Source: Actinomycetota bacterium (GTDB lineage Bacteria; Actinomycetota; Actinomycetes; Mycobacteriales; Mycobacteriaceae). Taken from it: a stretch of 64,000 bases of DNA. The notes beneath the pieces are model-generated. The model worked only from the letters and a program-made list of their open reading frames with translations, did not search any database and was not told the origin of the DNA. The position numbers and the translations under genes were made by a program. Position 1 is the stretch's first letter. Every line of letters starts with the position of its first letter. Location: NCBI GenBank assembly GCA_018268465.1, contig JAFDWN010000007.1, positions 101,722 to 165,721 on the forward strand, in the 5' to 3' direction. Of this stretch, positions 33,787 to 53,885 are shown piece after piece.

Positions 33787-33802
33787 TGGGTTTGCCCGAT
33801 CG

Positions 33803-34408
33803 TCAGGCGGTGTCGGTCACCCCGGATCCGAGGAACTCCAGCGCCGCCCGGCACAGCCTGGAGAGTTCCGGCAGCGACCGTGGCTCGCCCAGCATCCACA
33901 TCTCCATCGCGCCGAACACCGCCGCGGCGATACAGCGTGCGGTGACGGTGATGCGCAGCGCCTCATCGGATCCCGGCGCGATGGCGTGGCGCCGCGCCAG
34001 ATGTTCCTGCACCGCCTCGGCGAAGTCGGCCTCGACCTGGCGGATGTGACGGACGATGCGTCCCTGGTCGAGTTCCTGGGCGCGCAACGTCGCGATTTTG
34101 GTGACGGCTTCCGCATCGTAGGGCGCGGCGAGGATGGCCGACTGGACGGCCTCGATGATCGATTCGTCCGGGGAGGTGTCGGCGAGCGCGGCCCGGAACC
34201 ACCGCAGGCTCGCATCGTAGTCGGCGAACAGCAAATCGTGCTTGGACGCGAAATGCCGGTAGAACGTGCGAAGCGACACCCCGGCGTCGGCCGCGATCTG
34301 TTCGGCCGACGTGTCCTCGACCCCCTGGGCGATGAACCGCACCAGCGCCGCCTGCCGCAGCGCGTCACGGGTTCGCTCGCTGCGAGCCGTATGTGCCGGC
34401 CTGGCCAT
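33803..34408 (-). CDS. TetR-family transcriptional regulator
   Basis: 201 aa. TetR HTH: TRDALRQAALVRFIAQGVEDTSAEQIAADAGVSLRTFYRHFASKHDLL split over helices 1-4 (about 10-58), then a ligand domain with ARCIAAAVFGAMEMWML. It precedes the CrtI-like gene in the same direction, with the palindrome between them, so it probably represses that gene. No second copy of the palindrome is seen at its own promoter. Confidence 0.92.
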   Translation of the reverse strand: MARPAHTARSERTRDALRQAALVRFIAQGVEDTSAEQIAADAGVSLRTFYRHFASKHDLLFADYDASLRWFRAALADTSPDESIIEAVQSAILAAPYDAEAVTKIATLRAQELDQGRIVRHIRQVEADFAEAVQEHLARRHAIAPGSDEALRITVTARCIAAAVFGAMEMWMLGEPRSLPELSRLCRAALEFLGSGVTDTA

Positions 34409-34704
34409 CCGGGTAACCTACCGCACCCGCGCCGGCCGCGCGGCCGCGCGCGCATCGGTGCGCCATGATCCCGGGCACATCGCCGCGAGGTGCGCTGGAT
34501 CGTGCATCCACCTCGCGATCCGCGCGCCACGAGACTGAGAGTTTTCCGCCAATTCGCTGGGAATTGACTGTGAGCTCTGGGTCTCAATCCCTCTGAGCAG
34601 CAACATCGTTGGCGCCGCGCGAGATGTGGCGGGGATTACAGCCCCACTCGTGAATGTTTGGCCGCGCGGATCCGTCTAACCGTTATCGGCGAAAGGCGGC
34701 CATC
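34409..34704. other. divergent intergenic region TetR/carboxylic acid reductase
   Basis: 296 bp. Contains a 9-bp hairpin (34484-34492 with 34509-34517) and a small dyad CAATTC-GCTGG-GAATTG at 34550-34566. GAAAGG at 34691-34696 is the ribosome site of the reductase. I see no coding region and no clear sigma-A promoter. Confidence 0.4.
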
Positions 34705-37700
34705 GTGACCAGTGACGTACAGCATGACACCAGCGGCCTGCGGGACCTTGGCGGGTCCGCGGAGGACCGGTTCGCCCACCGCGTCACGGAACTGTACGCC
34801 GGCGACGCCCAGTTCCGCAGGGCCAGACCGATCCCCGCGGCCCTGGAGTCGGCACGCAGGCCCGGCCTGCGGTTGGGGCAGGTGCTGCAGACCTTCGCCG
34901 ACTGGTACGCCGACCGTCCCGCACTCGGGCAGCGGGCCACCGAACTCGTCACCGACCCGCAGACGGGGCGGACCACATCACGGCTGCTGCCGACGTTCGA
35001 GACGATGAGCTATCGCGACGTGTGGTCGCGGGTCACGGCCATCGCCGCGGGGCTGCGCACCGACCCGACTTTCCCGATCGCCCCCGGCGACTTCGTCGCC
35101 ACCGTCGGATTCGCCAGTGCCGACTACCTCGTCATCGACCTGGTGTGCGCCTACCTCGGGTTGGTCTCGGTTCCGTTGCAGCACAACGCACCTGCCTCCA
35201 GACTGGGGCCGATCATCGCCGAGTCGCAGCCGCGCGTGGTGGCTGTCAGCGCCGAATACCTCGACCTGGCAATCGAATCGGTGCTGGCATCCGGCCGGAC
35301 ACCGGATCTTCTGGTGGTATTCGACCATCGCCCGGCGATCGACGACCACCGCGAGAACCTGCAGCGGGCCCGCGACACGCTGGCGGCCGCCGGGATCTCG
35401 GCCGTGGTCCATACGATCGACGAGATCGCCACGCGCGGTGAGCAATCCGCTGGCGAACCACCATACACGGGAGGAAGCGACCAGCGCCTGGCGATGGTCA
35501 TGTACACCTCGGGTTCCACCGGAACGCCCAAGGGCGCCATGTTCACCGAAGCGACGATGACCACCCTGTGGACCTCCCAGTTCGTCTCCGACATCCATCT
35601 CCCGGTGATCAACGTGAACTTCATGCCGCTGAATCACCTCGGCGGCAGGCTACCCCTCGTCTCGTCGTTCCAGACCGGCGGAACCAGCTACTTCGTCCCC
35701 GAATCGGATCTGTCCACGCTGTTCACCGATTGGAATCTGGTGCGGCCCACCGAGTTGGGACTGGTGCCGCGCGTGGTGGACATGCTCTTCCAGCGTTACC
35801 GCGGCGCCGTCGATCAGCGGGTGGCGGCGGGTATGGCCGAAAGCAGCGCACAGGCCCAGGCCGCAGCCGAGATTCGCGACCGGGTGCTGGGCGGCCGGGT
35901 GGTCGGCGGATTCGTCAGCACCGCGCCGCTGGCCGGCGAGATGAAGGCATTCCTGGACACCGTGCTCGATATCCACGTCGTGGACGGCTACGGATTGACC
36001 GAGGTCGGCGCGGTGCTGCGGGACGGTGTGGTGACGCGTCCCCCCGTGGTCGACTACAAGCTGGTCGACGTGCCCGAGCTGGGTTACTTCCGGACCGACA
36101 AGCCTTATCCACGAGGCGAACTGCTGGTGAAGACCATGACGGCCACACCCGGTTACTACCGGCGGCCCGATACGACGGCCGCTGCGTTCGACGCCGACGG
36201 CTACTACCGCACCGGCGACATCATGGCCGAGATCGAGCCCGACGTCCTGGTATACGTCGACCGGCGTAACAACGTGCTCAAACTCGCACAGGGCGAATTC
36301 GTCGCCGTGGCACGATTGGAGGCCGTCTTCGCAGGCGCGCCGCTGGTACGGCAGATCTTCGTGTACGGCAACAGCGAACGCGCCGCCCTGCTCGCCGTCA
36401 TCGTGCCCACCGCCGCGGCGCTCACCCGGTTCGCGGGCGACCCCGACGGGCTGCGGTCCGCGTTGAGCGAGTCACTGCAACGCACCGCCAAAGACGCCGA
36501 GTTGCAGTCCTTCGAGCTGCCTGTCGACTTCATCGTCGAGACCCAGCCGTTCAGCACCGACAACGGTCTACTGTCCGGTGTGGGAAAGTTGTTGCGCCCC
36601 AATCTCAAAGACCACTACGGCCCACGGCTGGAACAACTCTACGACGATATCGCCGCCGCCCAGGTCGATCAGCTGCGGGCCCTACGGCAATCGGCGGCCG
36701 ACCGGCCCGTCGTCGAGACCGTCACACGCGCCGCCGGCGCGATCCTCGGAACCGCGGAGGTCGACCCCGAAGCCCACTTCACCGACCTGGGTGGGGACTC
36801 GCTGTCGGCCCTGACATTCTCCAACCTGCTCACCGACGTGTTCGGCGTCGAGGTGCCCGTCGGGGTGATCATCAATCCCGCGAGCAATCTGTCCGACCTG
36901 GCCGACCACGTCGCCGCCCGGCGCGGTTCGGGCGCCAAGCGACCCACGTTCGCCAGCGTGCACGCCGGACCCGACGGGCTTGCGCCCACCGAGGTGCGGG
37001 CAGCCGATCTGACCCTCGGCAAGTTCCTGGACGACACGACGCTGGCCGCCGCCCCCACCCTGCCCCGCGCCACGGGCGAACCCGACATCGTCCTGCTCAC
37101 CGGGGCCAACGGTTGGCTGGGCCGGTTCCTGGCGCTCGAATGGCTGGAGCGCCTCGCGCGCCGCGGCGGCACGCTGGTCGCGGTGGTGCGGGGCCGTGAC
37201 GACGACGAGGCGCGGGCCCGGCTCGACTCCGCATTCGACAGCGGCGATCCCGCGCTGCTGCGCCGCTACCGCGAACTCGCCGACGGTCATCTGGAGGTGC
37301 TGGCCGGCGACATCGGTGAGCCGAACCTCGGGTTGGACACCCAGACCTGGCAGCGGCTCGCCGAGCGCGTCGACCTGATCGTGCACCCCGCGGCGCTGGT
37401 CAACCACGTCCTGCCGTACAGCCAGCTGTTCGGGCCGAACGTGGTGGGCACCGCCGAACTGATCCGGCTGGCACTGACCACCCGCATCAAACCGGTCACC
37501 TACCTGTCGACGGTCGCCGTGGCGATGACCGTCCCGCCGGCCGAGTTCGTCGAGGACGGCGACATCCGCACTGTCAGTGCGGTCAGGCCGATCGACGACG
37601 GGTACGCCAACGGCTACGCCACCAGCAAGTGGGCCGGGGAGGTGCTGCTGCGGGAGGCGCACGATCTGTGCGGACTGCCGGTGTCGGTGTTCCGCTCGGA

Positions 37701-42023: not shown

Positions 42024-42099
42024 GCCCCTATAGCTCAGTTGGTAGAGCTACGGACTTTTAATCCGCAGGTCCCAGGTTCGAGCCCTGGTGGGGGCACCA
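42024..42099 (+). tRNA. tRNA-Lys (TTT), integration site of the element
   Basis: Acceptor GCCCCTA/TGGGGGC, D-arm TAGCTCAGTTGGTAGA, anticodon loop CTTTTAA (TTT), encoded CCA. Bases 42059-42099 (anticodon 3' side to CCA) are repeated exactly at 53845-53885, so the integrated element supplies the 3' part and keeps the gene functional. Confidence 0.97.
42059..42099. repeat. attL core (tRNA-Lys 3' end)
   Basis: 41-bp segment identical to 53845-53885; the match stops at both ends (T versus G before, A versus C after). It spans the T-arm, the usual crossover region for tyrosine integrases. Confidence 0.93.
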
Positions 42100-42120
42100 A
42101 AAGCGGCAACGAGCCATCGT

Positions 42121-43302
42121 TTATTCACCGGTTATGGTTCGGTCGAGGAGGGCTGCGACCTCGGCGTGAACCTTGCCGCGCCGCATGTAGCGGTCCTGAG
42201 TCATCGACACTTTGGAGTGCCCGAGCTGGTCGGCGCCGATCCGTGCCGACATGCCGGCGTCATCGATCAGCGTGGCCAGCGACTTGCGGAACGAGTGCGA
42301 TGTCACGTCGGGCACCCCCAGGTCGTCCCGCACCCTGCGCCACTGCTTGTTGAAGTTGTCCGGGTCACGGCAGGTGCCGGCCGAGGACGGGAAGATCATC
42401 CGTTGTTCGCCCCAGAAGTCCCGGCCGCGGCGCTCAGATAGGGCTGTGATCGCGAACTCGGGTAGCGGCACCGTCCGTGCCGAAGAGTCTGTCTTGCCGC
42501 TGTCGAGGCGCCGTAGGCCCTCCCCCGCGATCCGCGCCACCTTGCCGCACACCGTGATGGTCCCGGCGGCCTCGTCGAAGTCCTCCCAGCGGAGCGCCAA
42601 CAGTTCGGAACGCCGCAGACCAGTCGCCGCCAGCAAGGTGATCGGGTCGATCAGATCGGCGGCGACGCACACCTCCGAGGCCCGGAGCTTGCCGAGCAGT
42701 TCCCGAATCTGGCCGCCGTCGAGAGCGGGGGCACCCTTTGGTTTGCGGTCCGATTCGATCCGGCTCACTTGCGCCACCGGGTTGGCGCCCAGGACGTCAT
42801 CGAGGACGGCGATCTGCAGCGCACCCCGCAGCAGAGTCCGGCCGTGACGAGCCATGTTCGCGCCGTGCGCCTGACGTATCGATCGGATCACCGCGTTCAG
42901 TCGGCCCGGTGTCGCATCCCCGACCCGCAGGGCCTCGGAGAACTTCGCCAACCTGCGGGCAGCACTGTGATACGTCGTCAGCGTGGCCGGAGACTTCCCG
43001 TCTTGACCAAGACGTTCAAGATGCAGGTCGACGAGCACCGAGATCCGGGTATCGAGCGAGATCTCACCCGATACCCCGGGCGGCCGGCGGTTCTTCAGCG
43101 ACTCGACCAGCGCATCCTCGGCGAGCTTGCCGTGTTGGTCGAACTGTTGAACCGGGCTGCGCCGCTCCACGATCCTAGTCACGCCATCTGCGTCACGAAA
43201 TCGGCAGCGCGCCAACCACACACCACCACCCAACGACTTCCGGGTGATCTTGCCGTGCGCACCGATCCTCAGCGGCGGCCTACCTGCCATCGAGCCGCTC
43301 AT
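42121..43302 (-). CDS. int: tyrosine-recombinase integrase
   Basis: 393 aa. Site-specific recombinase that would integrate and excise the element at tRNA-Lys, 22 bp from attL. N-terminal arm-binding region (about 1-70), core-binding SAM-like domain (about 90-175), catalytic domain with Arg in TGLRRSELLALRWEDF, the His-x-x-Arg box SHSFRKSLA, His in DQLGHSKVSM and nucleophile Tyr in TQDRYMRRG. Starts at 43302 or 43290 both overlap the end of the repressor gene, so the two are probably one operon, giving integration linked to lysogeny. Confidence 0.95.
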   Translation of the reverse strand: MSGSMAGRPPLRIGAHGKITRKSLGGGVWLARCRFRDADGVTRIVERRSPVQQFDQHGKLAEDALVESLKNRRPPGVSGEISLDTRISVLVDLHLERLGQDGKSPATLTTYHSAARRLAKFSEALRVGDATPGRLNAVIRSIRQAHGANMARHGRTLLRGALQIAVLDDVLGANPVAQVSRIESDRKPKGAPALDGGQIRELLGKLRASEVCVAADLIDPITLLAATGLRRSELLALRWEDFDEAAGTITVCGKVARIAGEGLRRLDSGKTDSSARTVPLPEFAITALSERRGRDFWGEQRMIFPSSAGTCRDPDNFNKQWRRVRDDLGVPDVTSHSFRKSLATLIDDAGMSARIGADQLGHSKVSMTQDRYMRRGKVHAEVAALLDRTITGE

Positions 43303-43903
43303 CAGGCTTCAGTTGTTGCTCGGCCGTCTCGACCTCGGTGATCAATTTGCCGATCTCCCGGTTCACGTCATCGAGAGCTTTCCTCGCCGCCGGCCCGAAG
43401 GTTCCTCCGAACACCCGAACATCCTGGGTGTGCGCGAGCCGCACGATCGGCTCCAGCAGACTGACGGCCTTCACGGCTGGATCCTCGTTCCACCAGAGCA
43501 TGGTGCGGTGGAGGTCCCGTGCTGCCTTCGCAAACTCTTCTTGCGACGCGTCCTCGGGCCAGGGCTGCTCACCACGCAGCCACCAATAAAGTTCGTCGAC
43601 TCCAAGCGGGTCCACGCCCTTTGCCACCGTCAGGCACTCCCCGCCCGCGGGAAGCAACAGGTCAATAACACTGGTATTCAACGCGATTGCAATCTTGAGC
43701 AATTCGTCAACCGCAACCTTCCGCGTGGCGTTCTCGACCTCAGAGACCCCGGAGGGAGACAACTTCAGCCCAAGGGGAGCGAGTTGAGTAGATAGATCGC
43801 GCACAGTCATGCTGCGGACGCCGCGGATACGCCTGATGTTGTCGCCGAGAGACACCCGCACGGGGTCCTTTTCGCCCGACGCCGAGTCGTTGCCGTCTGT
43901 CAC
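43280..43903 (-). CDS. XRE-family repressor-like regulator
   Basis: 207 aa. N-terminal XRE helix-turn-helix (about 18-75: VSLGDNIRRIRGVRSMTVRDL, then SPSGVSEVENATRKV across recognition helix), followed by a helical region (about 95-200) not recognised. Position divergent from the xis-like gene marks it as the immunity-type repressor. The GTG start at 43903 is 6 nt after a TAGCAT -10 box (minus strand) and has little ribosome site, so the mRNA may be leaderless, as is common for mycobacterial repressors. Confidence 0.87.
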   Translation of the reverse strand: MTDGNDSASGEKDPVRVSLGDNIRRIRGVRSMTVRDLSTQLAPLGLKLSPSGVSEVENATRKVAVDELLKIAIALNTSVIDLLLPAGGECLTVAKGVDPLGVDELYWWLRGEQPWPEDASQEEFAKAARDLHRTMLWWNEDPAVKAVSLLEPIVRLAHTQDVRVFGGTFGPAARKALDDVNREIGKLITEVETAEQQLKPDERLDGR

Positions 43904-43909
43904 ATCTCG

Positions 43910-43915
43910 ATGCTA
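43910..43915 (-). promoter_or_regulatory. -10 box for a leaderless repressor transcript
   Basis: TAGCAT on the minus strand, last base 7 nt before the G of the GTG start, which puts the expected start of transcription on the start codon. No clear -35. Confidence 0.45.
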
Positions 43916-43950
43916 ACCCCTTGTCCGGAAAAAACGCACCGCGAACGGAC

Positions 43951-43979
43951 TTGACGGACAGAGAGCAGAAGGGCATCAT
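43951..43979 (+). promoter_or_regulatory. candidate early promoter of the element
   Basis: TTGACG (43951-43956), 17-bp spacer, CATCAT (43974-43979), pointing at the xis-like gene. Strong -35, weak -10. Confidence 0.4.
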
Positions 43980-43989
43980 CCACCTATCG

Positions 43990-44025
43990 CCGGAAAATCC
44001 GGATGTTGTTCGGAAAATACGAACA
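43990..44025. promoter_or_regulatory. repressor operators in the divergent switch region
   Basis: Two dyads: CCGG-AAAAT-CCGG (43990-44002) and TGTTCG-GAAAATA-CGAACA (44007-44025). Both share CGGAAAAT; a third CGGAAAA copy is at 43926. They overlap the 5' leader of the xis-like gene, so binding would block early transcription. Confidence 0.6.
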
Positions 44026-44033
44026 GGAGGAAG

Positions 44034-44228
44034 ATGCCAACTTCAGAGGACTACTGGCTCACTCGGCCAGAAGTCGGGGAACGTCTCAAGGTGAGCCCCA
44101 AAACACTCGCCCAGTGGGCAACCAGAGGGGAAGGCCCCAGATACGCGATCTTCGGAAAGTTTGCACGCTACCGACTCTCAGACGTAATCGATTGGGAGAA
44201 CGCCCAATTCACCGGTGGTGCCGCGTGA
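44034..44228 (+). CDS. excisionase-like HTH protein
   Basis: 64 aa. MerR/excisionase winged-helix: YWLTRPEVGERLKVSPKTLAQW, wing GPRYAIFGKFARYRLSDVIDW. Such proteins bend DNA at att sites to favour excision. AGGAGG sits 7 bp upstream. First gene on the plus strand after the switch region, and it overlaps the next frame by GTGA. Confidence 0.88.
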   Translation: MPTSEDYWLTRPEVGERLKVSPKTLAQWATRGEGPRYAIFGKFARYRLSDVIDWENAQFTGGAA

Positions 44229-44326
44229 CGCGCACCCCAGAAACGCCGGCGGCCCCCGTTGATCTCGACGCGCCAACGTCGAGCGGGGACCGCTGCCCGT
44301 CACTCACCAGAGATCAGGAGAACCCC

Positions 44327-44782
44327 ATGGTACAGAAGACCAAGCTCGACCTATTGGACCTCGACCTCCAGCACGCCATCAACGGTCGTTTCCTCGGTCG
44401 GCGTGGCATCTTCCGCCACATACGGCCAGACGTCGAGACGGCCCAGCGTCTGGCTCGGGAGCGCGGCATCACGCAGTTCCACACGATGGTCACGGTGTTC
44501 GCGTACGAATTCCACCCGTCCTCGTATGGCGTGCTCATGAAGGTTCTCCGAGAGCGGAGTTTGGTCGGTGAGCTGGTCCGCTGGGTCACCGAGGACGGTG
44601 AGGTCGGCTACGACGCCGAGATCAATGGCACTGATGGCAACGACGCCGGACTGTGCGAGGTCGCCATCAGCAGCATCCGCAGCCTCGACGCCCTCGCCAA
44701 AGTCGCGGGCGATCTTCGCCTTGAGTGGGAGATCATCACCGGCGTCTACGCCGATCAAGGCGTGACCTGGAGCGCCGTCTGA
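44327..44782 (+). CDS. hypothetical protein of the element
   Basis: 151 aa from ATG 44327, which has AGGAGA at good spacing; GTG 44225 (overlapping the xis stop) would add 34 Pro/Asp-rich residues. Sequence is KTKLDLLDLDLQHAINGRFL, then helical-looking segments and an acidic Gly/Asn stretch (GTDGNDAG). No known motif. Probably early gene of replication or regulation by position. Its stop overlaps the next ATG by 1 nt. Confidence 0.7.
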   Translation: MVQKTKLDLLDLDLQHAINGRFLGRRGIFRHIRPDVETAQRLARERGITQFHTMVTVFAYEFHPSSYGVLMKVLRERSLVGELVRWVTEDGEVGYDAEINGTDGNDAGLCEVAISSIRSLDALAKVAGDLRLEWEIITGVYADQGVTWSAV

Positions 44783-45051
44783 TGGACACCGAATCGGTTG
44801 TGGCCCAGCATCGCCGGCGGGCACTCGCGCCTCCTTGTCGCCTATGCGGCGTCGATACCGGCGAACTCTGTATAAGCCATGTCACCGGGGAGCCGATGCC
44901 CGACCGGATCCATTTCACCCGGGCGTTGCGGGTCGAACCGCAACCCGACAGCCGACGCCGCCAGCACGACCGGCGCACACAGGCCGCGGCCCGGATGCCC
45001 GTCATGGCCTGCGGCTGCACGGACTCACTTCGCCACCGGTGCGGGTGGTGA
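44782..45051 (+). CDS. small Cys-containing hypothetical protein
   Basis: 89 aa. Cys pairs CRLCG near residue 20 and CGCTDSLRHRC near the end could hold a zinc ion, and the middle is rich in Arg and Gln, suggesting nucleic-acid contact. TGATG overlap with the previous gene fixes the start. Unknown function. Confidence 0.65.
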   Translation: MDTESVVAQHRRRALAPPCRLCGVDTGELCISHVTGEPMPDRIHFTRALRVEPQPDSRRRQHDRRTQAAARMPVMACGCTDSLRHRCGW

Positions 45052-45058
45052 TGCCGAA

Positions 45059-46573
45059 GTGACTGATGATCGCCGCGCGCATATCGAGCGCGGCAAGGTT
45101 GTTGCCCAGGAGGTCGCCGGCCAGCGGCCCCCTGGCGCACGCCTGCTCGACGAGGTTCACGCATCCATTCAGCGGTACTGCGTCCTGCCCGGCGAGCACG
45201 AGTCGGTGGCGGTGACGTTATGGGTCGCGTTGACGCATCTACTGTCCTGCTTCGACTACGCCCCGCGGCTCGTGATCCGATCGGCCGAGAAGCGGTCCGG
45301 GAAATCACGCCTGCTCGAAGTCGTCGACGCGCTCGTGTACTCGCCGCTGCGCGCCGTGAACGCGACCGTCTCGTATGTCTTTCGGTCGCTGGCCGCCGAT
45401 CCGCCTCCCACACTGCTTTTCGACGAGGTCGACACCATCTTCGGATCCAAGAAGGTCGCCGAGAACAACGAGGAGCTGCGCGGCCTGCTGAACGCCGGAT
45501 TCCAGCGCGGCCTGCCGTTCGGCCGGACCGTCGGCCCCAACCACGTCCCGGCCGAGTTCTCGACCTTCGCCATGGCTGCGCTCGCCGGCATCGGCCGCCT
45601 ACCCGAAACAATCGAGGACCGCGCAGTCGTCGTCGTGATGAAACGCCGAACCGCCGGTGAAAAGGTCGCGCCCTACCGGATCAGCCGCGACGGCCCCAAG
45701 CTGCACGCACTGCGGAACCGAGTCGGCGAATGGGCCGACATGGTGCGCGAGCGCGCCGAAGCTCAAGGCGAGCCGGAGCTGCCCATCGAGGACCGCGCCG
45801 CCGACCTCTGGTCCCCGCTGGTCGCGGTGGCTGACCTCGCCGGTGGACAGTGGCCAGAACTAGCTCGAGCGGCTGCCTCCGCACTCGTCGAAACGGCAGC
45901 CGAAGAGGACACCACCCGCTCGACGAACATGCAACTACTCGAAGACATCCGCGGCGTGTTCGAGGGCAAGTTCATGAAGAGCGCTGACCTGTGCAGCAAA
46001 CTCCGGCAACTGCCCGAATCGCCGTGGGAACAGTTCGGACTCAACCCTTCAAAGCTGGGCCGAAGACTCCGCGAATACGCCATCAAGACCCGCCACTCCG
46101 ACGACAAAACCGAGCGCGGCTACCACCTCCCCGACTTCCGCGACACCTTCGCCCGCTACCTCCCACCCCCAGAAAAGGCGTCCGAAGGTGTCCAAGGCGT
46201 CCAACAAACCTCTGACCAGCAACGACAGCAGGACACCTTCACCCACCCCAAGGCGTCCGCAGCCCACACACAAGGCGTCCAGGACACCACCGCGGACACC
46301 TTCCCAACCAACAAGGCGTCCCAGCAAAACCCCAGCTCAAACCCCATACCGGACACCATGGACACCATGGGACACCTTTTTTCCGAACCCGGAGAGAAAC
46401 CCAGCGGCAACGTGACCGCCATTCCCTCCTACAACCCACACCGCCGCAAACGCACCCGAGGCAAGTTCCAACCACCCGCCGGACCCGGCCGCTGCCCATC
46501 CTGCGGATGGCACATCGAATCCATGGGCCACGCCGACGACTGCGACACAGCAAACGAGGAGCAGACAGCATGA
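45059..46573 (+). CDS. DUF3631 ATPase (satellite primase/helicase-like)
   Basis: 504 aa. Core ATPase region (about 45-200): Walker A variant SAEKRSGKSRLLEV, Walker B PTLLFDEVDTIFG, then LLNAGFQRGLPFGRTVG and the arginine-bearing LPETIEDRAVVVVMKRR, diagnostic of DUF3631 proteins found in mycobacterial prophage-like elements and phiRv1/2-type primase genes. No Toprim or primase active site is visible, so replication-initiating helicase/loader is a better guess than primase. The C-terminal ~150 residues are Thr/Gln/Pro-rich with repeated KAS and GVQ motifs and end in a Cys finger (CPSCGWHIES...DDC). GTG 45059 follows the previous stop by 7 nt. Confidence 0.82.
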   Translation: MTDDRRAHIERGKVVAQEVAGQRPPGARLLDEVHASIQRYCVLPGEHESVAVTLWVALTHLLSCFDYAPRLVIRSAEKRSGKSRLLEVVDALVYSPLRAVNATVSYVFRSLAADPPPTLLFDEVDTIFGSKKVAENNEELRGLLNAGFQRGLPFGRTVGPNHVPAEFSTFAMAALAGIGRLPETIEDRAVVVVMKRRTAGEKVAPYRISRDGPKLHALRNRVGEWADMVRERAEAQGEPELPIEDRAADLWSPLVAVADLAGGQWPELARAAASALVETAAEEDTTRSTNMQLLEDIRGVFEGKFMKSADLCSKLRQLPESPWEQFGLNPSKLGRRLREYAIKTRHSDDKTERGYHLPDFRDTFARYLPPPEKASEGVQGVQQTSDQQRQQDTFTHPKASAAHTQGVQDTTADTFPTNKASQQNPSSNPIPDTMDTMGHLFSEPGEKPSGNVTAIPSYNPHRRKRTRGKFQPPAGPGRCPSCGWHIESMGHADDCDTANEEQTA

Positions 46574-46845
46574 GCAACCAATTCCCTACCACCGAGCAGA
46601 CCGCAGCCGCACCCGTCGACGCCCTGCTCATCGCCCGCGCCTACCTCCGCGGAGACGACGACGCCACCCAAGTCCTCCTCAAGCATTGCGATCCCTGGTC
46701 AACCACGCTGCAGCTCGCAGGCTGGCTGCGCACCGCCCTCGCCGAAGCACTCCACCGCGGCGCCGGGCACCAACACGAGGACCACACTGTCGAGGACGTG
46801 CTCGACCGGTGGATCGCCACGGTCCGAGCCGAAGCCGACCAGTGA
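46570..46845 (+). CDS. small hypothetical protein
   Basis: 91 aa, acidic and helical (PVDALLIARAYLRGDDDATQ...). ATGA overlap with the DUF3631 gene, GTGA overlap with the HNH gene, so it is translated in a tight operon. No motif recognised. Confidence 0.7.
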   Translation: MSNQFPTTEQTAAAPVDALLIARAYLRGDDDATQVLLKHCDPWSTTLQLAGWLRTALAEALHRGAGHQHEDHTVEDVLDRWIATVRAEADQ

Positions 46846-47279
46846 CCCTCAAGCCCTGCCTGGTCTGCGGGCAGCCTGGACGCCGCAATCGCTGCCCCGA
46901 GCACCTGCCCAAGCGGCCCAACAAGCACCTCCCGCGCCACCACCCCCACATGAACGGCGGCCGATGGAAACGGCTGTCCGTCGCAGCCCGACGCCGCCAA
47001 CCATGGTGCCTGGACTGCGGCGCCGTCGCCGACCTCACCGTCGACCACGTCATCCCCATTGCCGAGGCACCAGAACTGGCCTACGAACCACGCAACCTCG
47101 CTGTCCGCTGCCGACCCTGCAACAGCCGCCGCGGCGCACGCTGCACCGACGCCGAACGCGACGCCGTCCTCGAAGCCATCACCGCGCCCCCGACCAGGGG
47201 GGATGCCCTAAACGGTGCCCTCCACCGCCGCGACGCCAAGGCACGGGGGGCATTACACACCCCTGGGGGGTATGCGTGA
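46842..47279 (+). CDS. HNH endonuclease
   Basis: 145 aa. Zinc and nuclease signature CLDCGAVADLTVDHVIPIAE followed by NLAVRCRPCNSRRG, preceded by a CLVCG/CPEH finger. In HK97-like phages an HNH protein beside the terminase is needed for specific cos cleavage. It lies just before the large terminase, where a small terminase would be expected and is not otherwise seen. GTG 46842 overlaps the previous stop by 4 nt. Confidence 0.88.
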   Translation: MTLKPCLVCGQPGRRNRCPEHLPKRPNKHLPRHHPHMNGGRWKRLSVAARRRQPWCLDCGAVADLTVDHVIPIAEAPELAYEPRNLAVRCRPCNSRRGARCTDAERDAVLEAITAPPTRGDALNGALHRRDAKARGALHTPGGYA

Positions 47280-47281
47280 GA

Positions 47282-47482
47282 TCAGCGAATGCGGACGGGC
47301 TTGGACGGATGCTTCTCGCCGGGGCTGACGTGTGTCCAGTAGTTGGGGCTATAGAGCTTCACCTGCTCGCCGTCCTTCCTGACCTCAATGAGGCCCCACT
47401 CCTTGACCTCGATCGAGTGCGAATCGTCGTAGGAGTCGTAATCGGCTTTGTCGCCGCGAGCGTAGAAGATCGTGAATGCCAT
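47282..47482 (-). CDS. small protein on the opposite strand between HNH and terminase
   Basis: 66 aa: MAFTIFYARGDKADYDSYDD, then EVKEWGLIEVRKDGEQVKLYSPNYWTHV and a basic end. Amino-acid make-up (Tyr, Trp, charged residues) is that of a real folded beta-rich protein, unlike the other antisense frames. Its end abuts the HNH stop (2-bp gap) and its start overlaps a possible terminase ATG, so it is an insert into the packaging module. It could be a lysogenically expressed cargo gene. Function unknown. Confidence 0.6.
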   Translation of the reverse strand: MAFTIFYARGDKADYDSYDDSHSIEVKEWGLIEVRKDGEQVKLYSPNYWTHVSPGEKHPSKPVRIR

Positions 47483-47496
47483 TCCGGGATGGTGTC

Positions 47497-48969
47497 ATGA
47501 GGGCTGGCCCGAAGGCGTCGGTTGATGCCAGCCCGTTACCGTGGCGGCCGCGGTCGACGGGTTCAGCGCGGTTCGCCCGGTTCTGTGAGCGGTACGTGAA
47601 GGTGCCGAAGGGCACCGGGGCCCGGTCGCCGTTGAAGCTGCGGGCGTGGCAGCGCGATCTGGTGGGGTCGGTGCTTGACGCGAATCCGCAGCCGCGGACG
47701 GCGGGCTGGATGCTGCCGCGCGGTTCGGGCAAGTCCAGCTTGATGGCGGCGTGGGGTTTGTACGAGTTGTTCATGGGCGGCGAGGGCGCGACGGTCTGTG
47801 TCGTCGCAGTCGATGAGCGGCAGGCCGGCATTGTGTTCAACGTCGCCCGTCGTATGGCTGAGCTCGACGAGGATCTTGCCGCGCGGGTGCAGGTGTTCAA
47901 GGAACGGCTCTACATCCCCGAACGCGATGCGCATTTCCACTGTCTGCCTGCTGAGCCGAAACGCCTTGAGGGATTGGATTACACGCTGGCGATCCTGGAC
48001 GAGGCCGGCGTGGCCAACCGTGACAGCTACGAGGTGTTGACGCTGGCGCAGGGTAAGCGGGAACGGTCGACGCTGGTGGCGATCGGCACGCCGGGGCCGA
48101 ACCTTCAGGACCAGGTGTTGCTTGATCTGCGGGCGTACGCCGCCGAGCACCCCGAGGACGGATCGCTGGTGTGGCGGGAGTTCTCCGCGGCCGGGTTCGA
48201 GGACCACCCCGTGGACTGCGCGCACTGCTGGGAGCTGGCCAACCCGGCGCTGGATGACTTTCTGCACCGCGACGCGCTGCACGCCCTGTTGCCGCCGAAG
48301 ACCCGTGAGTCGACGTTCCGGCGGGCCCGGCTGTGCCAGTTGGCCGGTGACACCGAGGGTCGATTCCTGACCCCTGATGTCTGGGACAACCTGTCCACGA
48401 GTCAGCCGGTCCCGGATGGCGCCGAGGTGGTCATCGCTCTGGACGGCTCGTTCTCCGATGACACGACGGCGCTGTTGGTCGGAACTGTGGCGGCCGAGCC
48501 GCATTTCGACACGGTGCGGGTGTGGGAACGTCCACCGGGTGAGGACGCCTACCGGGTGCCGATCGCGCAGGTGGAGGACACCATCCGGGAGTCGTGCCGG
48601 CGGTGGCGGGTGGTGGAGATCGTCGCTGACCCGTTCCGCTGGACCCGCACGCTGCAGGCGTTGGAGTCTGAGCGGCTGCCGGTGGTGGAGTTCCCGCACT
48701 CCCCGGCCCGGTTGACCGCGGCGACGACGGATCTGTACAGCGCCGCGGTGAATGGCCGTATGTCGCACAGCGGCAACGCGAAGCTGGCTGCCCATGTCGG
48801 GGCCGCGGTGATCGTTGAGGACGCCCGCGGGATGCGCCTCTCGAAGCAGTCCCGGTCCCGCACCGCACCCAAGATCGACCTGGCCGCGTGCCTGGTGATG
48901 GCCCATAGCCGCGCCACGTGGCGCGCTACCCACAAAACACGAAGGAAGACAAGGAGTTTCGTCGCATGA
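47497..48969 (+). CDS. terL: large terminase
   Basis: 490 aa. DNA-packaging motor. N-terminal ATPase with Walker A MLPRGSGKSSLMAAW (about residue 80) and Walker B YTLAILDEAG; C-terminal RNase H-like nuclease with the first Asp in VVIALDGSFSDDTTALLVG and further acidic residues in VEIVADPFRW. ATG 47497 is favoured over 47476 because the latter overlaps the minus-strand ORF start. Length and order match HK97-type TerL. Its stop overlaps the portal ATG. Confidence 0.93.
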   Translation: MRAGPKASVDASPLPWRPRSTGSARFARFCERYVKVPKGTGARSPLKLRAWQRDLVGSVLDANPQPRTAGWMLPRGSGKSSLMAAWGLYELFMGGEGATVCVVAVDERQAGIVFNVARRMAELDEDLAARVQVFKERLYIPERDAHFHCLPAEPKRLEGLDYTLAILDEAGVANRDSYEVLTLAQGKRERSTLVAIGTPGPNLQDQVLLDLRAYAAEHPEDGSLVWREFSAAGFEDHPVDCAHCWELANPALDDFLHRDALHALLPPKTRESTFRRARLCQLAGDTEGRFLTPDVWDNLSTSQPVPDGAEVVIALDGSFSDDTTALLVGTVAAEPHFDTVRVWERPPGEDAYRVPIAQVEDTIRESCRRWRVVEIVADPFRWTRTLQALESERLPVVEFPHSPARLTAATTDLYSAAVNGRMSHSGNAKLAAHVGAAVIVEDARGMRLSKQSRSRTAPKIDLAACLVMAHSRATWRATHKTRRKTRSFVA

Positions 48970-50348
48970 CCGACAACCCGCTACTGCTGTCGTTGTTGCA
49001 GCGGCTCGACGAGCCAGCCGCCCGCTACCACGAGCTCGATCTGTACTACCGCGGTGAGCAGCCGTTGGCGTTCCTGTCGCCGGAGGCGAAAACCGCTCTG
49101 GGGCAACGGTTCGGCCGTATGGCCTCCAACATTCCGCGGCTGGCGGTGACGGCGCTGGCCGAGCGGCTGCGCCTCACCGGGTTCACCGGCGACGCGGCCG
49201 ACCTGTGGGCGGACTGGATCCGCAACGATCTCGATCAGGAGGCCGGGGTGGCGCACCGCGAGGCCCTGCTGCTGGGGGACTCGTTCGTCATCGTCTGGGC
49301 AGACCGGGTGGGCCGGCCCAAGGTGACCATCGAGTCGGCGAAACAGGTTGCTGTGCAGCTTGACCCCGGCACACGGCAGATCACCGCCGCGGTGAAGCGG
49401 TGGGAAACGAAGACCACCACCGAGGCCGTACTGTACGAGCCCGATCAGATCACCCGGTATCGGGCCAACGCCACCGGCGCCACCGTGCACGGCTTCACCG
49501 TGGTCGAAACGCTGGCCAACCCACTGGGTGTGACACCGGTAGTCGGTATCCGCAACTCCGACCGCATCCTGTCCGAGCGTGGCTGTTCGGAGATCGACGA
49601 CCTCAAACCGTTGGTCGACGCGTTGAACAAATCCTTGGCCGACATGATGGTCACGTCGGAATATGTTGGCCGCCCGCGCCGCTGGGCCACCGGCATCGAA
49701 CTCACCGAGGAACCCCTAGTCGACGGCGACGGCAACCCCGTGGTCGATGTGGACGGCGAGATTGTCATGACCGAGGCCAACCCCATCGCGGAAAACCACC
49801 GCGCGATGATTTCGGAGAACGACCAGGCCAAATTCGGTCAGCTCCAGTCCGCGGACCTGTCGGGCTACGAAGCGTCAGTGCGGGTCATCTTGGGCCAGAT
49901 CATGGCCGTGTCAACACTTCCCGCGCACTACGTCGGCGTGTTCACCGACAACCCCGCCAGCGCGGATGCGCTGCGCGCCGCCGAAGCATCGTTGACCGCC
50001 CGCGCCGAGGCCCGCCAGGCCACGTTCGGCCGCGCGTGGGAACAAGTGGCCAAGCTGATGGTCGCGGTCCGTGATGGCCGTGACCCGCTGCAGGTCGAGG
50101 CCCGGGTGCAGTGGGCCGACGCCGCCACCCGATCGGTCGCCCAGGAGGCCGACGCCGTGGTCAAGCTGCACGCTGCCGGGCTGCTGCCCGCGTCCTACGC
50201 ACTGGCCAAGCTCGGCTACAGCGATGACGAGATCCTCGAGATCCGTGCCGCGCGGCGCGCCGAAGCCCTCGACAGCCAGGGCGTCAACCTGGTCAGGTCG
50301 GCGCCGGCCGCCGACGCAGTACCCGCTCAGCCCCGGCCGGCGGCATGA
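48966..50348 (+). CDS. phage portal protein (SPP1 gp6-like)
   Basis: 460 aa. Dodecameric ring through which DNA enters the capsid. Features of the family: LLQRLDEPAARYHELDLYYRG at the N terminus, GDSFVIVWADRVGRPKVTIES, an acidic insertion with GDGNPVVDVDGEIVMTEANP, and the stem/crown region ADALRAAEASLTARAEARQA. ATGA overlap with terL and with the next gene fixes both ends. Confidence 0.92.
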   Translation: MTDNPLLLSLLQRLDEPAARYHELDLYYRGEQPLAFLSPEAKTALGQRFGRMASNIPRLAVTALAERLRLTGFTGDAADLWADWIRNDLDQEAGVAHREALLLGDSFVIVWADRVGRPKVTIESAKQVAVQLDPGTRQITAAVKRWETKTTTEAVLYEPDQITRYRANATGATVHGFTVVETLANPLGVTPVVGIRNSDRILSERGCSEIDDLKPLVDALNKSLADMMVTSEYVGRPRRWATGIELTEEPLVDGDGNPVVDVDGEIVMTEANPIAENHRAMISENDQAKFGQLQSADLSGYEASVRVILGQIMAVSTLPAHYVGVFTDNPASADALRAAEASLTARAEARQATFGRAWEQVAKLMVAVRDGRDPLQVEARVQWADAATRSVAQEADAVVKLHAAGLLPASYALAKLGYSDDEILEIRAARRAEALDSQGVNLVRSAPAADAVPAQPRPAA

Positions 50349-51352
50349 GCGTCGTCGACGATTTCCAATCCGCCACCGAGGACCTGGCCACCCTGACGGT
50401 GGCCGCGGTCCGGGCGATCTATCTGCAGTTGGTGGCGCGGCAGATCAGCCGCGATGACGCGGCCCTCCTGGTGGCGGGCGCCGTCAACCGCGCCAACGCG
50501 TCAGCGGTCACCCTGGCTGACGCGTATCTGGCCGCTCAGATTGAGGAAGCGGTCGGCGTCCCCGTCCCCACCACCGGGGTGGCGCCCGTCGACGCCTCCG
50601 AACGACTCCTCAAGGCCGCCACAACGATCCTGACCGAGGCACCCAAAACCAGCTTCACCCAAGCCGAGATCCGCGGTCTGCTCCGTTCAGTCGGTCTGGA
50701 CCCGCAGCCGTGGGACATTGCAGCGATCACGAGGGAGGTCAACCGCTCCCTGGCCGACCGGCTCGACGAGATGGACCCCGCACCGGACTGGACCCCCGCC
50801 GATATCGCCGCGGCCCGCGCCGAGCACGGCACGTTCGCGATGGCCGACTTCATCGAGCTGGTCAACGAGAGCCCGCGAAAGCTCAGTGAGCGTGGCCTGT
50901 TCCCGCCGCCCCCACCGCACACCGGCGGCATCGACCCCCACCGCGACGCCGCCCACGACGCATGGGAAGCGCAACTGGCGCCGGACCTGAACCCGGACGA
51001 CTACACCGACCACCCGCCGATCTGGGAACCCGAACCCCAGGACGCGGAAACGCGGCTGGAACGCCTCGCCCGCTGCGAACCCCTCGAAGCCGCCCAGAAC
51101 GCCGCCCAGGCCGCAATCGAACGTCAAGACCTCGTCGAGGGCTGGACCCGGCAGATGGACGACGACCCGTGCCAACTGTGCCGGTGGTGGTGGCGCGAAG
51201 GCCGAATCTGGCCGAGCAACCACCCATTCCAGTCGCACAAGGGCTGTAACTGTCAGCCCCGGATCGTGCTCGCCACGAACATCGGATCCACCCAATACAC
51301 GCGCCGTCTGGCGCGCGCGCACGCCGACACCGGCACGCGTATCCCACGATGA
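50345..51352 (+). CDS. MuF-like minor head protein
   Basis: 335 aa. Follows portal, as Mu gpF/SPP1 gp7 proteins do; they go into the procapsid with the portal. The C-terminal module CQLCRWWWREGRIWPSNHPF followed by SHKGCNCQPRI has the MuF-type Cys/His pattern. The middle (about 185-245) is Pro/Asp-rich. No protease motif, so capsid maturation may proceed without a dedicated protease or use the helper's. Confidence 0.8.
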   Translation: MSVVDDFQSATEDLATLTVAAVRAIYLQLVARQISRDDAALLVAGAVNRANASAVTLADAYLAAQIEEAVGVPVPTTGVAPVDASERLLKAATTILTEAPKTSFTQAEIRGLLRSVGLDPQPWDIAAITREVNRSLADRLDEMDPAPDWTPADIAAARAEHGTFAMADFIELVNESPRKLSERGLFPPPPPHTGGIDPHRDAAHDAWEAQLAPDLNPDDYTDHPPIWEPEPQDAETRLERLARCEPLEAAQNAAQAAIERQDLVEGWTRQMDDDPCQLCRWWWREGRIWPSNHPFQSHKGCNCQPRIVLATNIGSTQYTRRLARAHADTGTRIPR

Positions 51353-51363
51353 AAGGAGAAACC

Positions 51364-51816
51364 ATGTCCGACAACCACACCCCCGACGAAACCACCACCG
51401 AGGTGATGGAGAGGTCGGAAACCGACCCGGCAACCGACGTCACGTCCGGCGCGGCCGACACCCCCGAAGGGTCCGATTCAGAATCGAACCCCGAGACCTT
51501 CCCCCGCTCCTACGTCGAGGAACTACGGCAGGAGAACGGCCGCTATCGGCAACGCGCCCAACAGGGTGACGCCTACGCGCAACGCCTGCACACTGAACTC
51601 GTCCGGGCCACCGGCCGACTCGCCGACCCCACCGACCTACCCTTCGCCGCAGACCACCTCGACGACAGCGACAAGTTGTCACTCGCACTCGACGAACTGC
51701 TCACCCGCAAACCACACCTCGCCAACCGCCGACCCGCCGGCGACATCGGCCAAGGCCCAACCCCATCCGGCGGTAGCGTCGACCTCGCCGCAATCCTGCG
51801 GCAACAAGCCCAATAG
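51364..51816 (+). CDS. scaffold protein
   Basis: 150 aa. Acidic disordered N terminus (Thr/Ser/Glu/Asp rich), short coiled coil (SYVEELRQENGRYRQRAQQG) and a C-terminal tail; this and its place before the capsid gene fit phage capsid scaffolds. ATG 51364 has AAAGGAG at proper distance, better than ATG 51349. Confidence 0.78.
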   Translation: MSDNHTPDETTTEVMERSETDPATDVTSGAADTPEGSDSESNPETFPRSYVEELRQENGRYRQRAQQGDAYAQRLHTELVRATGRLADPTDLPFAADHLDDSDKLSLALDELLTRKPHLANRRPAGDIGQGPTPSGGSVDLAAILRQQAQ

Positions 51817-51835
51817 ATATGAGGGGGAACAGAGT

Positions 51836-52009
51836 ATGGCAACTGCGGGGATCAACGAGAAGAACGAAACTGCCAAGGCGTTCTACACGGCGATTGGGGC
51901 TGAGCTTGAATTGGTCGCCGCTGGAGAGTACACATCCAAGTTGGCTGCTCTCGAGCAACTGGCTCGCATCTACGCGCTGGTAGCTGAAGCACCTGTGTCG
52001 AGAGCCTGA
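51836..52009 (+). CDS. small helical hypothetical protein in the head module
   Basis: 57 aa: MATAGINEKNETAKAFYTAI and then AELELVAAGEYTSKLAALEQLARIY in two helices. AGGGGG ribosome site 10 bp upstream. Located between scaffold and capsid; could be a decoration or size-determining factor, but there is no direct evidence. Confidence 0.6.
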   Translation: MATAGINEKNETAKAFYTAIGAELELVAAGEYTSKLAALEQLARIYALVAEAPVSRA

Positions 52010-52125
52010 TCATCTCGTCGGGAACAGGGGTAAACTGGTGGGGTCGGTCCTGGTGGCCGGCCCCATCGTTGTCCTGGTGACACGGGTTCGTTGAATCCCA
52101 CTTCCCTTGTCACGTAAGGACTCTC
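52010..52125. other. leader of the capsid gene with hairpin
   Basis: 116 bp. Holds an 8-bp stem (52040-52047 with 52057-52064, one G-U) and a TAAACT box at 52031. This is the only sizable gap in the head operon, so it may hold a separate capsid promoter or a translation control element. Confidence 0.35.
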
Positions 52126-53274
52126 ATGGCTGAATCCACCGCCACCAATCCCACCCTGCTCGCCGACCAGGTTTCCTCGCTGCTCGTGCAGCCCCTCGAA
52201 GCCGCCAGCGTCGTCCTATCCAGCGGCCCGCGGATCTTCGACACCGCCGGCGTGCTGCGCATCCCCAAGCTCACCGGGTCGTCCACGGTCGGGTTCGTCG
52301 GCGAAAACGAACTCATCCCCTCCGACCACGACACGAACTTCGACGAGGTGGTGCTGATGCCCACCGACCGCAAGTCCATCAAGGTCATTGAGCGCTACTC
52401 GCGGGAGCTGGCCCGCCAGGCCGTCATCGGCATCGACGCCACCCTCAAGAACCGCTTGGTGAAGGTGGTCTCCGACAAGCTCGACACCGCCCTGTTGACC
52501 GGCAAGGGCCAGGCCACCAACGAGGTGCAGACCGTCACGATCACGGGTTCGCCCACCGGCGGCACCTTCACCCTCAGCTTCCGCGGCGCCACCACCTCCG
52601 GGCTGAACTACAACGCCGCCGCGTCCACCGTGCAGACCGCGCTGCAGGGCCTCGCGACCATCGGATCGGGCAACGCCACCGTCGCCGGATCGGCCGGCGG
52701 CCCCTACACCGTGACGTTCGCCTCCGCGCTGGCCGCGACCGCTGTCGACCAGCTCGTGGCCAACGGCGCCAGCCTCACCGGCGGCACACCCGCCATCGCT
52801 GTGACCACCACCGCGGAAGGAGAGTCGGCCAACGGTATCCGCGGCATCATCAACCAGCCCGGCGTGCAGACCGGGGAGCTCGACGTCACCGACGCCGATT
52901 CTCTGTTGGACGCGATCGCGCTGGCGTCGGCAGCCGAAGTCACCCCCACCAGATGGTTCCTGTCCGGGGCCGACTTCATCGCACTCCGCAAGCTCAAGGA
53001 CGGCAACGACCGCTACCTGATCGAATCCGACGTCACCAAGGACACCACCTACCGACTGTTCGGCTTGCCGGTCACCGTGACCAACAAGATGGCCACCGGC
53101 AAGGGCATCCTCGCCGACACCAGCCAGATCGCCATCGCCCGCGACCTCGCCCCGTCGGTCACGATCCTGTCCGAGCGATACGCGGACTACGACCAGATCG
53201 GCATCCGCGTCGTCACCCGCTACGACCTCGGCCTTCTGCACCCGCAGGCCGTCATCGTCCTCACCGCCGCCTGA
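52126..53274 (+). CDS. HK97-fold major capsid protein with inserted Ig-like domain
   Basis: 382 aa. N-terminal arm and E-loop region (PRIFDTAGVLRIPKLTGSST, FDEVVLMPTDRKSIKVIERY), spine-helix RELARQAVIGIDATLKNRLV and C-terminal A-domain part (ADFIALRKLKDGNDRYLIES, PQAVIVLTAA) are those of HK97-like capsids. Residues about 132-232 form an insertion (QTVTITGSPTGGTFTLSF..., GGPYTVTFASALA) of the beta-sandwich type seen on phage surface proteins, probably displayed outside. There is no delta-domain or separate protease. Stop overlaps the next ATG. Confidence 0.9.
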   Translation: MAESTATNPTLLADQVSSLLVQPLEAASVVLSSGPRIFDTAGVLRIPKLTGSSTVGFVGENELIPSDHDTNFDEVVLMPTDRKSIKVIERYSRELARQAVIGIDATLKNRLVKVVSDKLDTALLTGKGQATNEVQTVTITGSPTGGTFTLSFRGATTSGLNYNAAASTVQTALQGLATIGSGNATVAGSAGGPYTVTFASALAATAVDQLVANGASLTGGTPAIAVTTTAEGESANGIRGIINQPGVQTGELDVTDADSLLDAIALASAAEVTPTRWFLSGADFIALRKLKDGNDRYLIESDVTKDTTYRLFGLPVTVTNKMATGKGILADTSQIAIARDLAPSVTILSERYADYDQIGIRVVTRYDLGLLHPQAVIVLTAA

Positions 53275-53594
53275 TGCAACCCGAAATCGTCCCCGACCAC
53301 GCGGTGCCCGGGCTGCTGGCCGCCACACCAGACAGCCCGAGCGCGGTGATCCCGCTCATCACGGCGATGGCCCGGGCATACACCCGGGGCCGCGGCTTCG
53401 ACGACGACGGCCGGCCCAACGACGAGGTGGCCGCCGTCATCACCACCGCGTCGGCGCGGCTGGCCGCCAACACCAAGCAGCTCAACCAGTCAGCCAGCAT
53501 GGACGGGTTAGGCGCCGACACCCGCTCGTTCTTCACCGGCTGGACCCTGGCCGAGCTGTTCGTGCTCAACCGCTACCGTCGGCGAGCCATGTAG
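53274..53594 (+). CDS. putative head-tail connector/head completion protein
   Basis: 106 aa. Directly after the capsid gene (TGATG overlap), as in HK97-like head modules where gp6-like adaptors follow. Helical with AVIPLITAMARAYTRGRGFD and a C-terminal FVLNRYRRRAM. If it is an adaptor, it is the piece that would dock a helper phage tail. Identification rests on position, size and general pattern. Confidence 0.65.
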   Translation: MQPEIVPDHAVPGLLAATPDSPSAVIPLITAMARAYTRGRGFDDDGRPNDEVAAVITTASARLAANTKQLNQSASMDGLGADTRSFFTGWTLAELFVLNRYRRRAM

Positions 53595-53844
53595 ACCGGG
53601 TGGTGGCTGGCGTCAAACCCGAACCCAGGCTGACATGACCTGCTCCCCGGGCAAGGACCGCCACGACCGCCGGTCGCGCGCGAGCGATACCTGCGCCAAG
53701 CCACCACCCCCAACGCTTATTCACCTGCAATAACCGAGAATCGGCGAGAACAGCCGAGATCTAGTTAAGGCAGAATAGAAACAACATCGCAGGTAATGAG
53801 GAATTATCGGGACTGCTCAGCAATCCCAAGGACACCCGGCGTGG
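53595..53844. other. right-end non-coding region of the element
   Basis: 250 bp with no credible gene. It is more AT-rich than the surroundings from about 53710 and has short related motifs (CCGAGAA, GGCGAGAA, GCCGAGA near 53735-53760) that could be integrase or Xis arm sites. No tail genes follow. Confidence 0.4.
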
Positions 53845-53885
53845 TAATCCGCAGGTCCCAGGTTCGAGCCCTGGTGGGGGCACCA
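53845..53885. repeat. attR core
   Basis: Exact 41-bp copy of the tRNA-Lys 3' end (42059-42099). It lacks the 5' part of a tRNA, so it is the displaced host end of the gene, marking the right border of the element. Confidence 0.93.

Follow-up and report, generated by a model that had tools for sequence, protein, structure and literature searches.

The question raised by this locus is how an element integrated at a bacterial tRNA gene can encode the packaging and capsid proteins of a phage head while no gene for a tail is recognized beside them. The element occupies 11.8 kb at a tRNA-Lys gene within a stretch of 64,000 nucleotides from a Mycobacteriaceae genome (contig JAFDWN010000007.1), this whole stretch being referred to as the window; numbers preceded by L and G designate loci and genomes or contigs of the analysis, respectively. 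A first-pass annotation of the DNA had read the element as a satellite rather than a decaying prophage, and this reading has held up, as related elements recur without tails, their genes are open and purifying selection is seen in most comparisons. It is highly probable that the element is an integrated tail-less phage satellite which assembles a small head of its own, packs it with DNA and obtains its tails from a helper phage.

A head module bounded by attachment sites

Both ends of the element are marked by the same 41-bp repeat without a single mismatch (42059-42099 and 53845-53885), and the 6.88-Mb assembly contains only these two copies, i.e., the left and right attachment sites attL and attR. 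The former coincides with the 3' part of the tRNA-Lys(ttt) gene, which according to ARAGORN is still complete after insertion. Hence, exact repeat and tRNA call agree with the proposal that a perfect 41-bp repeat bounds 11.8 kb at tRNA-Lys. Integrase and repressor are encoded on the minus strand beside the tRNA, while an operon-like gene row occupies the plus strand. The 16 predicted proteins of the element were scanned in family searches, with the following result (aa, amino acids; homologue counts refer to 200 related loci described below):

42024..42099, plus strand: tRNA-Lys (ttt), complete, the integration target (ARAGORN)
42059..42099, plus strand: attL, 41-bp perfect repeat
42121..43302, minus strand: tyrosine integrase, 393 aa (PF00589, E 4.4e-20; phrog_1, E 2.8e-56)
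43280..43903, minus strand: Cro/CI-type helix-turn-helix (HTH) repressor, 207 aa (HTH_3, E 7e-5; phrog_11503, E 3e-8)
44034..44228, plus strand: excisionase/regulator, 64 aa (HTH_17, E 2e-8; phrog_66 excisionase, E 2e-9)
44327..44782, plus strand: o151, 151-aa protein without family match (found again in L075 and L190, out of 200 loci)
44782..45051, plus strand: o89, small protein (no PHROG or PADLOC match, sub-threshold Pfam match only)
45059..46573, plus strand: DUF3631 AAA+ ATPase, 504 aa (PF12307, E 1.5e-52; Walker-type motifs in the alignment)
46570..46845, plus strand: o91, 91-aa protein without family match
46842..47279, plus strand: HNH endonuclease, 145 aa, upstream of the terminase gene (PF01844, E 1.3e-8; phrog_144, E 3.8e-17)
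47282..47482, minus strand: small antisense open reading frame (ORF), 66 aa, between HNH and terminase genes
47476..48969, plus strand: terminase large subunit (TerL), 497 aa (PF20441, PF03354; phrog_9, E 2e-78)
48966..50348, plus strand: portal, SPP1-type, 460 aa from ATG (PF05133, E 3e-33)
50345..51352, plus strand: putative MuF-like minor head protein, 335 aa (position; C-terminal Cys/His motif common to relatives)
51349..51816, plus strand: scaffold, 155 aa (phrog_4708, E 1.3e-4)
51836..52009, plus strand: o57, 57-aa protein (homologues only in L089 and L197 among 200 loci)
52126..53274, plus strand: HK97-type major capsid protein, 382 aa (PF05065, E 1.5e-30; TIGR01554; predicted fold)
52510..52824, plus strand: inserted capsid domain, residues ~129-233, of a type known from phage tail proteins
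53274..53594, plus strand: head-tail adaptor (Ad1 type), last gene before attR (family profile)
53845..53885, plus strand: attR, 41-bp perfect repeat

Integrase, repressor, excisionase, DUF3631 ATPase, HNH endonuclease, TerL, portal and capsid protein had all been named in the first-pass annotation, and each was confirmed by these family searches; for the portal, a longer GTG start at 48918 is also listed (phrog_104, E 7e-108 for the longer form). The scaffold assignment is backed by phrog_4708, although this match is weak; a scaffold relative was detected in 68 of 70 same-genus loci and 126 of 130 others. In contrast, the MuF-like label found no match in Pfam, PHROGs, NCBIfam or PADLOC, and the PDB gave two weak matches, the best being to a sulfatase (E 0.008). 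The label, unconfirmed by any library, is kept only for the position of the gene and for the C-terminal Cys/His motif of the 335-aa protein, which looks MuF-like. The genes had further been described as mostly joined by overlaps of 1-4 nt. This applies to seven junctions (o151/o89, DUF3631/o91, o91/HNH, TerL/portal from ATG 48966, portal/MuF-like, MuF-like/scaffold and capsid/adaptor), whereas gaps precede o151, DUF3631, TerL, o57 and capsid. All listed plus-strand genes are open reading frames and, as claimed, apparently intact. The small antisense ORF overlaps the TerL start and occurs at the same place and in the same orientation in L065, L083 (identical to L180) and L196.

Tail or lysis proteins were, in line with the original claim, recognized nowhere among the 16 scanned proteins; a lysis protein that is small and belongs to no described family would escape such a scan. 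No match to a head maturation protease was obtained in the same set, the capsid gene being preceded by a scaffold gene instead, and as to defense cargo PADLOC returned only generic HNH and HTH matches. With a structure model of the DUF3631 ATPase (pLDDT 69), Foldseek found AAA+ motors, replicative helicases in particular, at TM scores of ~0.3; PriRep1 (7pds) and poxvirus D5 (8apl) are examples. PriRep1 is a replication initiator of staphylococcal pathogenicity islands (SaPIs), and judging from the model the ATPase is a probable replication helicase or initiator. Relatives of it were detected in 12 of the 200 loci and are located beyond the satellite's adaptor in L247, L181 and L073; therefore, replication modules vary.

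The last gene of the element, previously termed connector, does encode a head-tail joining protein, more exactly a head-tail adaptor of the Ad1 type. While the window protein alone has no clear match, the profile of its family matches chains 8zdj/8zdl of adaptor gp9 in the PDB (E 1e-8), and phrog_137 (head-tail adaptor Ad1) is matched by 10 of 20 family members, not by the window protein itself. The adaptor gene ends 250 bp before the start of attR, in accordance with the claim that the head module ends at attR without a tail. In the complete phage Heather (MK686069), by comparison, the genes after the adaptor encode tail terminator, major tail protein, etc. The head programme of the element extends to the very point where a tail would be taken. 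An adaptor was detected in 68/70 same-genus and 127/130 other loci, and its profile is rare outside the genus (5 of 396 genomes of the phylum, own genome included).

As a whole, the capsid model matches HK97-fold capsids including those of HK97 and Bxb1. Residues ~129-233 form a clean insertion in the alignment just after a long helix of the model and are modeled with low confidence. Alone among the 16 proteins, this insert draws tail-type matches (tail PHROGs); it resembles domains of the Bxb1 tail tip, tail tube and capsid (gp23, gp19 and capsid; chains 9d93, 9d9w). The insert may be exposed on the head exterior. Besides the window capsid, 5 of 103 other distinct capsids of the genome and IMG/VR scans carry it, as do those of L098 and L027 (cut by contig end).

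Relatives, target sites and selection

TerL was matched in 14 of 61 genomes (E up to 0.001) and the portal in 91 of 396 same-genus genomes, distant matches included in both cases. Of 72 regions fetched, 70 were analyzed, as L031 and L032 contain only a distant TerL (28-29%) and no full module. This same-genus set, for which 60 of the portal matches were fetched while the rest were fragments, short contigs, distant or left aside, is no census. A pattern-based scan of genomes added 51 loci from Mycobacterium (wide sense), Nocardia, Gordonia, Rhodococcus, Tsukamurella, Skermania, Janibacter, Citricoccus, Aeromicrobium, an Acidimicrobiia bin and others; M. tuberculosis is named in none of their titles, which is no test of kinship to phiRv1/phiRv2. 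From IMG/VR, the best 80 of 108 loci found were kept and 79 analyzed. The resulting 200 loci are not independent, since the same-genus, IMG/VR and GTDB sets overlap (L022 = L135, M. simiae; L083 = L180).

Counting the genes detected, the order HNH-TerL-portal-scaffold-capsid-adaptor is kept in all 200 loci, and 168 of them display all six head genes. Flanking repeats of at least 20 bp delimit 48 of the 70 same-genus loci, 42 of these repeats being located on tRNA genes of 12 amino-acid types. The bounded loci span 9,437-13,741 bp (quartiles 10,543, 10,792 and 11,080 bp; 43/48 within 10.0-11.5 kb), their longest ORF has 747 aa, and the distance from adaptor to attR ranges from 130 to 3,975 bp. 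A tail module like that of Heather, which takes ~9.9 kb from the terminator to the last minor tail gene, would therefore find no room.

In IMG/VR, 76 of the 79 loci reside on contigs of at most 14.8 kb, some being fragments. None of the 79 stretches, 6 of them shorter than their contig, has the terminal repeats that would point to a free genome. On each of the three longer contigs (17.3, 26.2 and 43.9 kb), the satellite is accompanied by another element or a further head module. The tape-measure model PF10145 was tried on three IMG/VR records, and the 43.9-kb contig G806 is the sole related contig found with a tape measure. Its satellite, 99.6% identical over 8.4 kb to L095, ends beside a second integrase, and the tape measure (32952-37637) is located beyond that integrase. 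No relative was seen inside a complete prophage of 40-60 kb, the 43.9-kb contig representing a satellite beside a separate element. This adjoining integrated element (L274:4696-17637, G806:24696-37637) has its own integrase, a DUF3631-like protein and a tape measure of 1,561 aa. A connector and a protease are weakly matched in it; TerL, portal and capsid were not seen among the proteins scanned. On the 26-kb metagenomic contig G805 (L276/L277, G805:839-16743), two satellite head modules are found in tandem, ~10.4 kb apart. In L256:8853-13386, a second integrase and an opposite-strand capsid adjoin the satellite, suggesting stacked satellites. The assembly of the window itself holds a second, diverged satellite head module on a 13-kb contig (L023, G000:C48:1-13066; TerL 60%, portal ~53%).

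Recurrence without tails at tRNA-Lys, one of the checks proposed initially, was observed in another species: L030 (G020), which has no tail either, occupies this tRNA-Lys and adjoins the same tRNA-Glu/Asp/Phe cluster. The two integrases share 80% identity, the 41 bp of attL are unchanged, attR differs by 5 mismatches and the element spans 10.8 kb; its portal is 74% identical to that of the window, its TerL just 35%. L085 is inserted at the neighboring tRNA-Phe. As to strains with an empty site, flanks were compared in 12 loci (L123-L134, the window's own among them). In G073 (L127), tRNA-Lys is followed by a homologue of the right flank ~1.1 kb on, which leaves no space for an insert, and the site appears unoccupied; L126 gives a weak match. 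A search with the joined flanks yielded no contiguous match among the matches listed because the right flank is poorly conserved.

When TerL, portal, scaffold, capsid and adaptor were tested for frame length, all five head genes passed in 58 of 70 same-genus loci and in 68 of 79 loci from IMG/VR. Among the 23 failing loci, 18 have an undetected gene or a contig end and 5 a shortened TerL frame. Ratios of nonsynonymous to synonymous substitution rates (dN/dS) were determined for the window against five chosen relatives; with dS of 0.5-1.25 these are rough values, and in L135 TerL is broken and represented by a single frame. TerL gave ~0.11-0.20 in four pairs and 0.59 against L136 (41% identity), the portal 0.15-0.21 in all five pairs and the capsid 0.17-0.41 in four of five, while scaffold and adaptor are looser (~0.26-0.58). 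This indicates purifying selection on most head genes, as estimated from sequence comparison. In L136, a portal of 83% identity next to a TerL of 41% shows module exchange. With regard to inactivating mutations in close copies, most loci pass by frame length and most comparisons show purifying selection, but some close copies do have broken head genes.

Matches in 50,697 phage records remained distant. TerL, portal and an insert-less capsid (that of relative L084) all matched at less than 60% identity, with best listed values of 34%, 35% and 27%, respectively. The window capsid matches 851 phage records, again all below 60%, the best listed rows lying on or around the insert (up to 54%). A megablast search of plasmid and phage records returned no match to the element. 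A 12.3-kb unannotated fecal phage contig, MT836167.1 (L283), encodes a portal 34% identical to that of the window and may be another small satellite.

Proposed satellite life cycle and competing explanations

If the element is a satellite, its life cycle can be outlined as follows. A helper phage, either infecting or resident as prophage, would relieve the repressor, whereupon integrase and excisionase would cut out an 11.8-kb circle which the DUF3631 ATPase would help to replicate. HNH endonuclease and TerL would then package the element through the portal that it encodes; the small HK97-type head to be filled, and the scaffold on which this head is built, would likewise be the element's. HK97 itself has a T=7 head for ~40 kb; by such scaling, which is arithmetic only, 11 kb would suit a T=3-sized head. 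The adaptor ring would accept a tail assembled by the helper, the helper would lyse the cell, and the particle would inject the element for integration at tRNA-Lys, leaving the tRNA complete. The theft of helper tails is inferred; satellites of similar build that have helper-type tails have been published (PMC10690885).

Several observations weigh against this picture. Neither a helper nor induction, particles or transfer were observed. A clear terminase small subunit (TerS) is missing among the 16 proteins scanned, the single weak match falling on the HNH protein (phrog_4581, E 1.3e-5), and the role of the DUF3631 ATPase rests on a moderate model (pLDDT 69, TM ~0.3). Among the relatives, 22 of 70 same-genus loci lack a flanking repeat of at least 20 bp, or an adaptor, in the examined stretch. 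The TerL frame is shortened in 5/149 loci (L022, L095, L109, L186, L247; contig-end cuts not counted), L095 and L247 being near-identical; the portal of L025 reads as two overlapping pieces though the frame-length test was passed; and the capsid dN/dS is ~1.07 against L164 (47% identity). Finally, no tape measure was recognized in the host assembly with the two models PF10145 and phrog_167, and thus no resident helper was seen; two models do not suffice to exclude one. PF10145 gave 0 matches. phrog_167, which was also matched in 14/14 control genomes, gave 4. Three of them, in frames of 380-453 aa, align with no more than a C-terminal part of the profile, and the fourth (G000:C2, E 8e-4) was rejected as tape measure, since its 1,213-aa ORF is SbcC/SMC-like. 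This ATPase gene (G000:C2:25342-28983; L285:7342-10983, minus strand) has neighbors matching phage families of unknown function and is possibly part of a defense cluster.

The broken genes in some relatives, together with the phage-type character of the head genes, would also fit a defective prophage in which deletions removed the genes for tail, replication and lysis. Such decay, however, would hardly preserve the head order in 200/200 loci (genes detected), a narrow size range over many tRNA sites and perfect att repeats; furthermore, purifying selection prevails in most comparisons, relatives were not seen in complete prophages, their genes are mostly open, and no close phage counterpart of the head was listed from the 50,697 records. 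Hence, a decaying prophage is not favored and must be considered very unlikely. Unlikely, too, is a phage-inducible chromosomal island (PICI) whose head genes only interfere with the helper while helper capsids do the packaging. Satellites redirecting helper capsids are known (PMC10690885), but the full TerL-portal-scaffold-capsid-adaptor set, kept mostly under purifying selection, exceeds what interference would need.

Two further explanations dispense with a helper's tail altogether. That no lysis gene was recognized among the 16 scanned proteins would suit a domesticated head module serving the host, e.g., as gene-transfer agent or other particle. Yet, the element possesses its own integrase, excisionase and att sites, tRNA sites differ between species, and presence is patchy, with portal matches in 91/396 same-genus genomes even when distant ones are included, which renders domestication most improbable. 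Likewise, a tail-less virus entering cells without any tail would be in keeping with the lack of a recognized tail gene and with a tail-type domain within the capsid, but the adaptor is found in 68/70 and 127/130 relatives, whereas the insert occurs in just 5 of 103 other distinct capsids, so that this scenario is scarcely credible. The satellite reading can tentatively be extended to the relatives: possibly, they belong to a single large lineage of actinobacterial satellites whose head machinery has no close counterpart in any sequenced phage. A small capsid would limit its members to ~10.8 kb, and terminases, integrases and cargo would be exchanged freely among them. On this view, the capsid of the window branch gained a tail-type surface domain that might stick particles to hosts or helper.

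Comparison with known satellites

No description of the window element was found in the literature, where word searches cannot find a sequence; the first-pass annotation likewise knew of none. Its class, however, is in print as "candidate PICIs" (PMC10654092). That paper applies the term to mycobacterial integrase-plus-capsid elements, phiRv1 and phiRv2 included, and its definition requires just integration machinery and a capsid gene. With integrase and capsid and without being a complete prophage, the window element falls under it, its genus being taken as Mycobacterium in the GTDB sense since the same-genus locus L022 corresponds to L135 of M. simiae. Compared by description, both are integrated, have an integrase and a capsid gene and use tRNA sites: the tyrosine-integrase examples of the paper are located at tRNA genes, and some have terminase, scaffold and helicase genes. 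phiRv1, in contrast, has a serine integrase according to a title cited there, while that of the window is a tyrosine integrase. Induction of candidate PICIs by phages is stated as not yet demonstrated.

Capsid-forming PICIs (cf-PICIs), as described in PMC10690885, have their own capsid, portal, TerL, HNH and head-tail connector, and tails are expected from the helper. All of these components are present in the window, the connector as Ad1-type adaptor. By description, the window element differs in having a scaffold instead of a recognized head protease and in lacking a clear TerS, and because neither a head protease nor a clear TerS was found it is not filed as a cf-PICI. The Streptomyces satellite MulchRoom (OQ784832, 14.8 kb), whose particles are reported to combine a small head with a tail as long as the helper's (PMC10690885), shares the TerL-portal-scaffold-capsid-adaptor order, a tyrosine integrase and the absence of an annotated tail gene. 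Unlike the window element, it carries terminal repeats of 1.6 kb, and a TerS and a stopper are annotated in it. At profile level, a clear relationship is confined to the portals, as TerL, scaffold and adaptor remain unmatched and the capsid match is marginal; kinship to MulchRoom by sequence thus does not go beyond the portal. Heather, a phiC31-like Streptomyces phage, provides the best listed phage TerL (34%) and a capsid related at profile level, but its genome has 41 kb and, as annotated over the first 20 kb, encodes a protease, a tail terminator, a tape measure and an endolysin.

Overall, the window element adds a cleanly bounded and apparently intact example to the mycobacterial satellites for which phage induction is proposed and undemonstrated (PMC10654092). 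The view of a family with fixed gene order, narrow size and heads unlike the searched phage records makes it testable which mycobacteriophage tails fit the conserved adaptor. By analogy with the published descriptions, the element would work like cf-PICIs and MulchRoom; it is known in kind and unusually clean in form.

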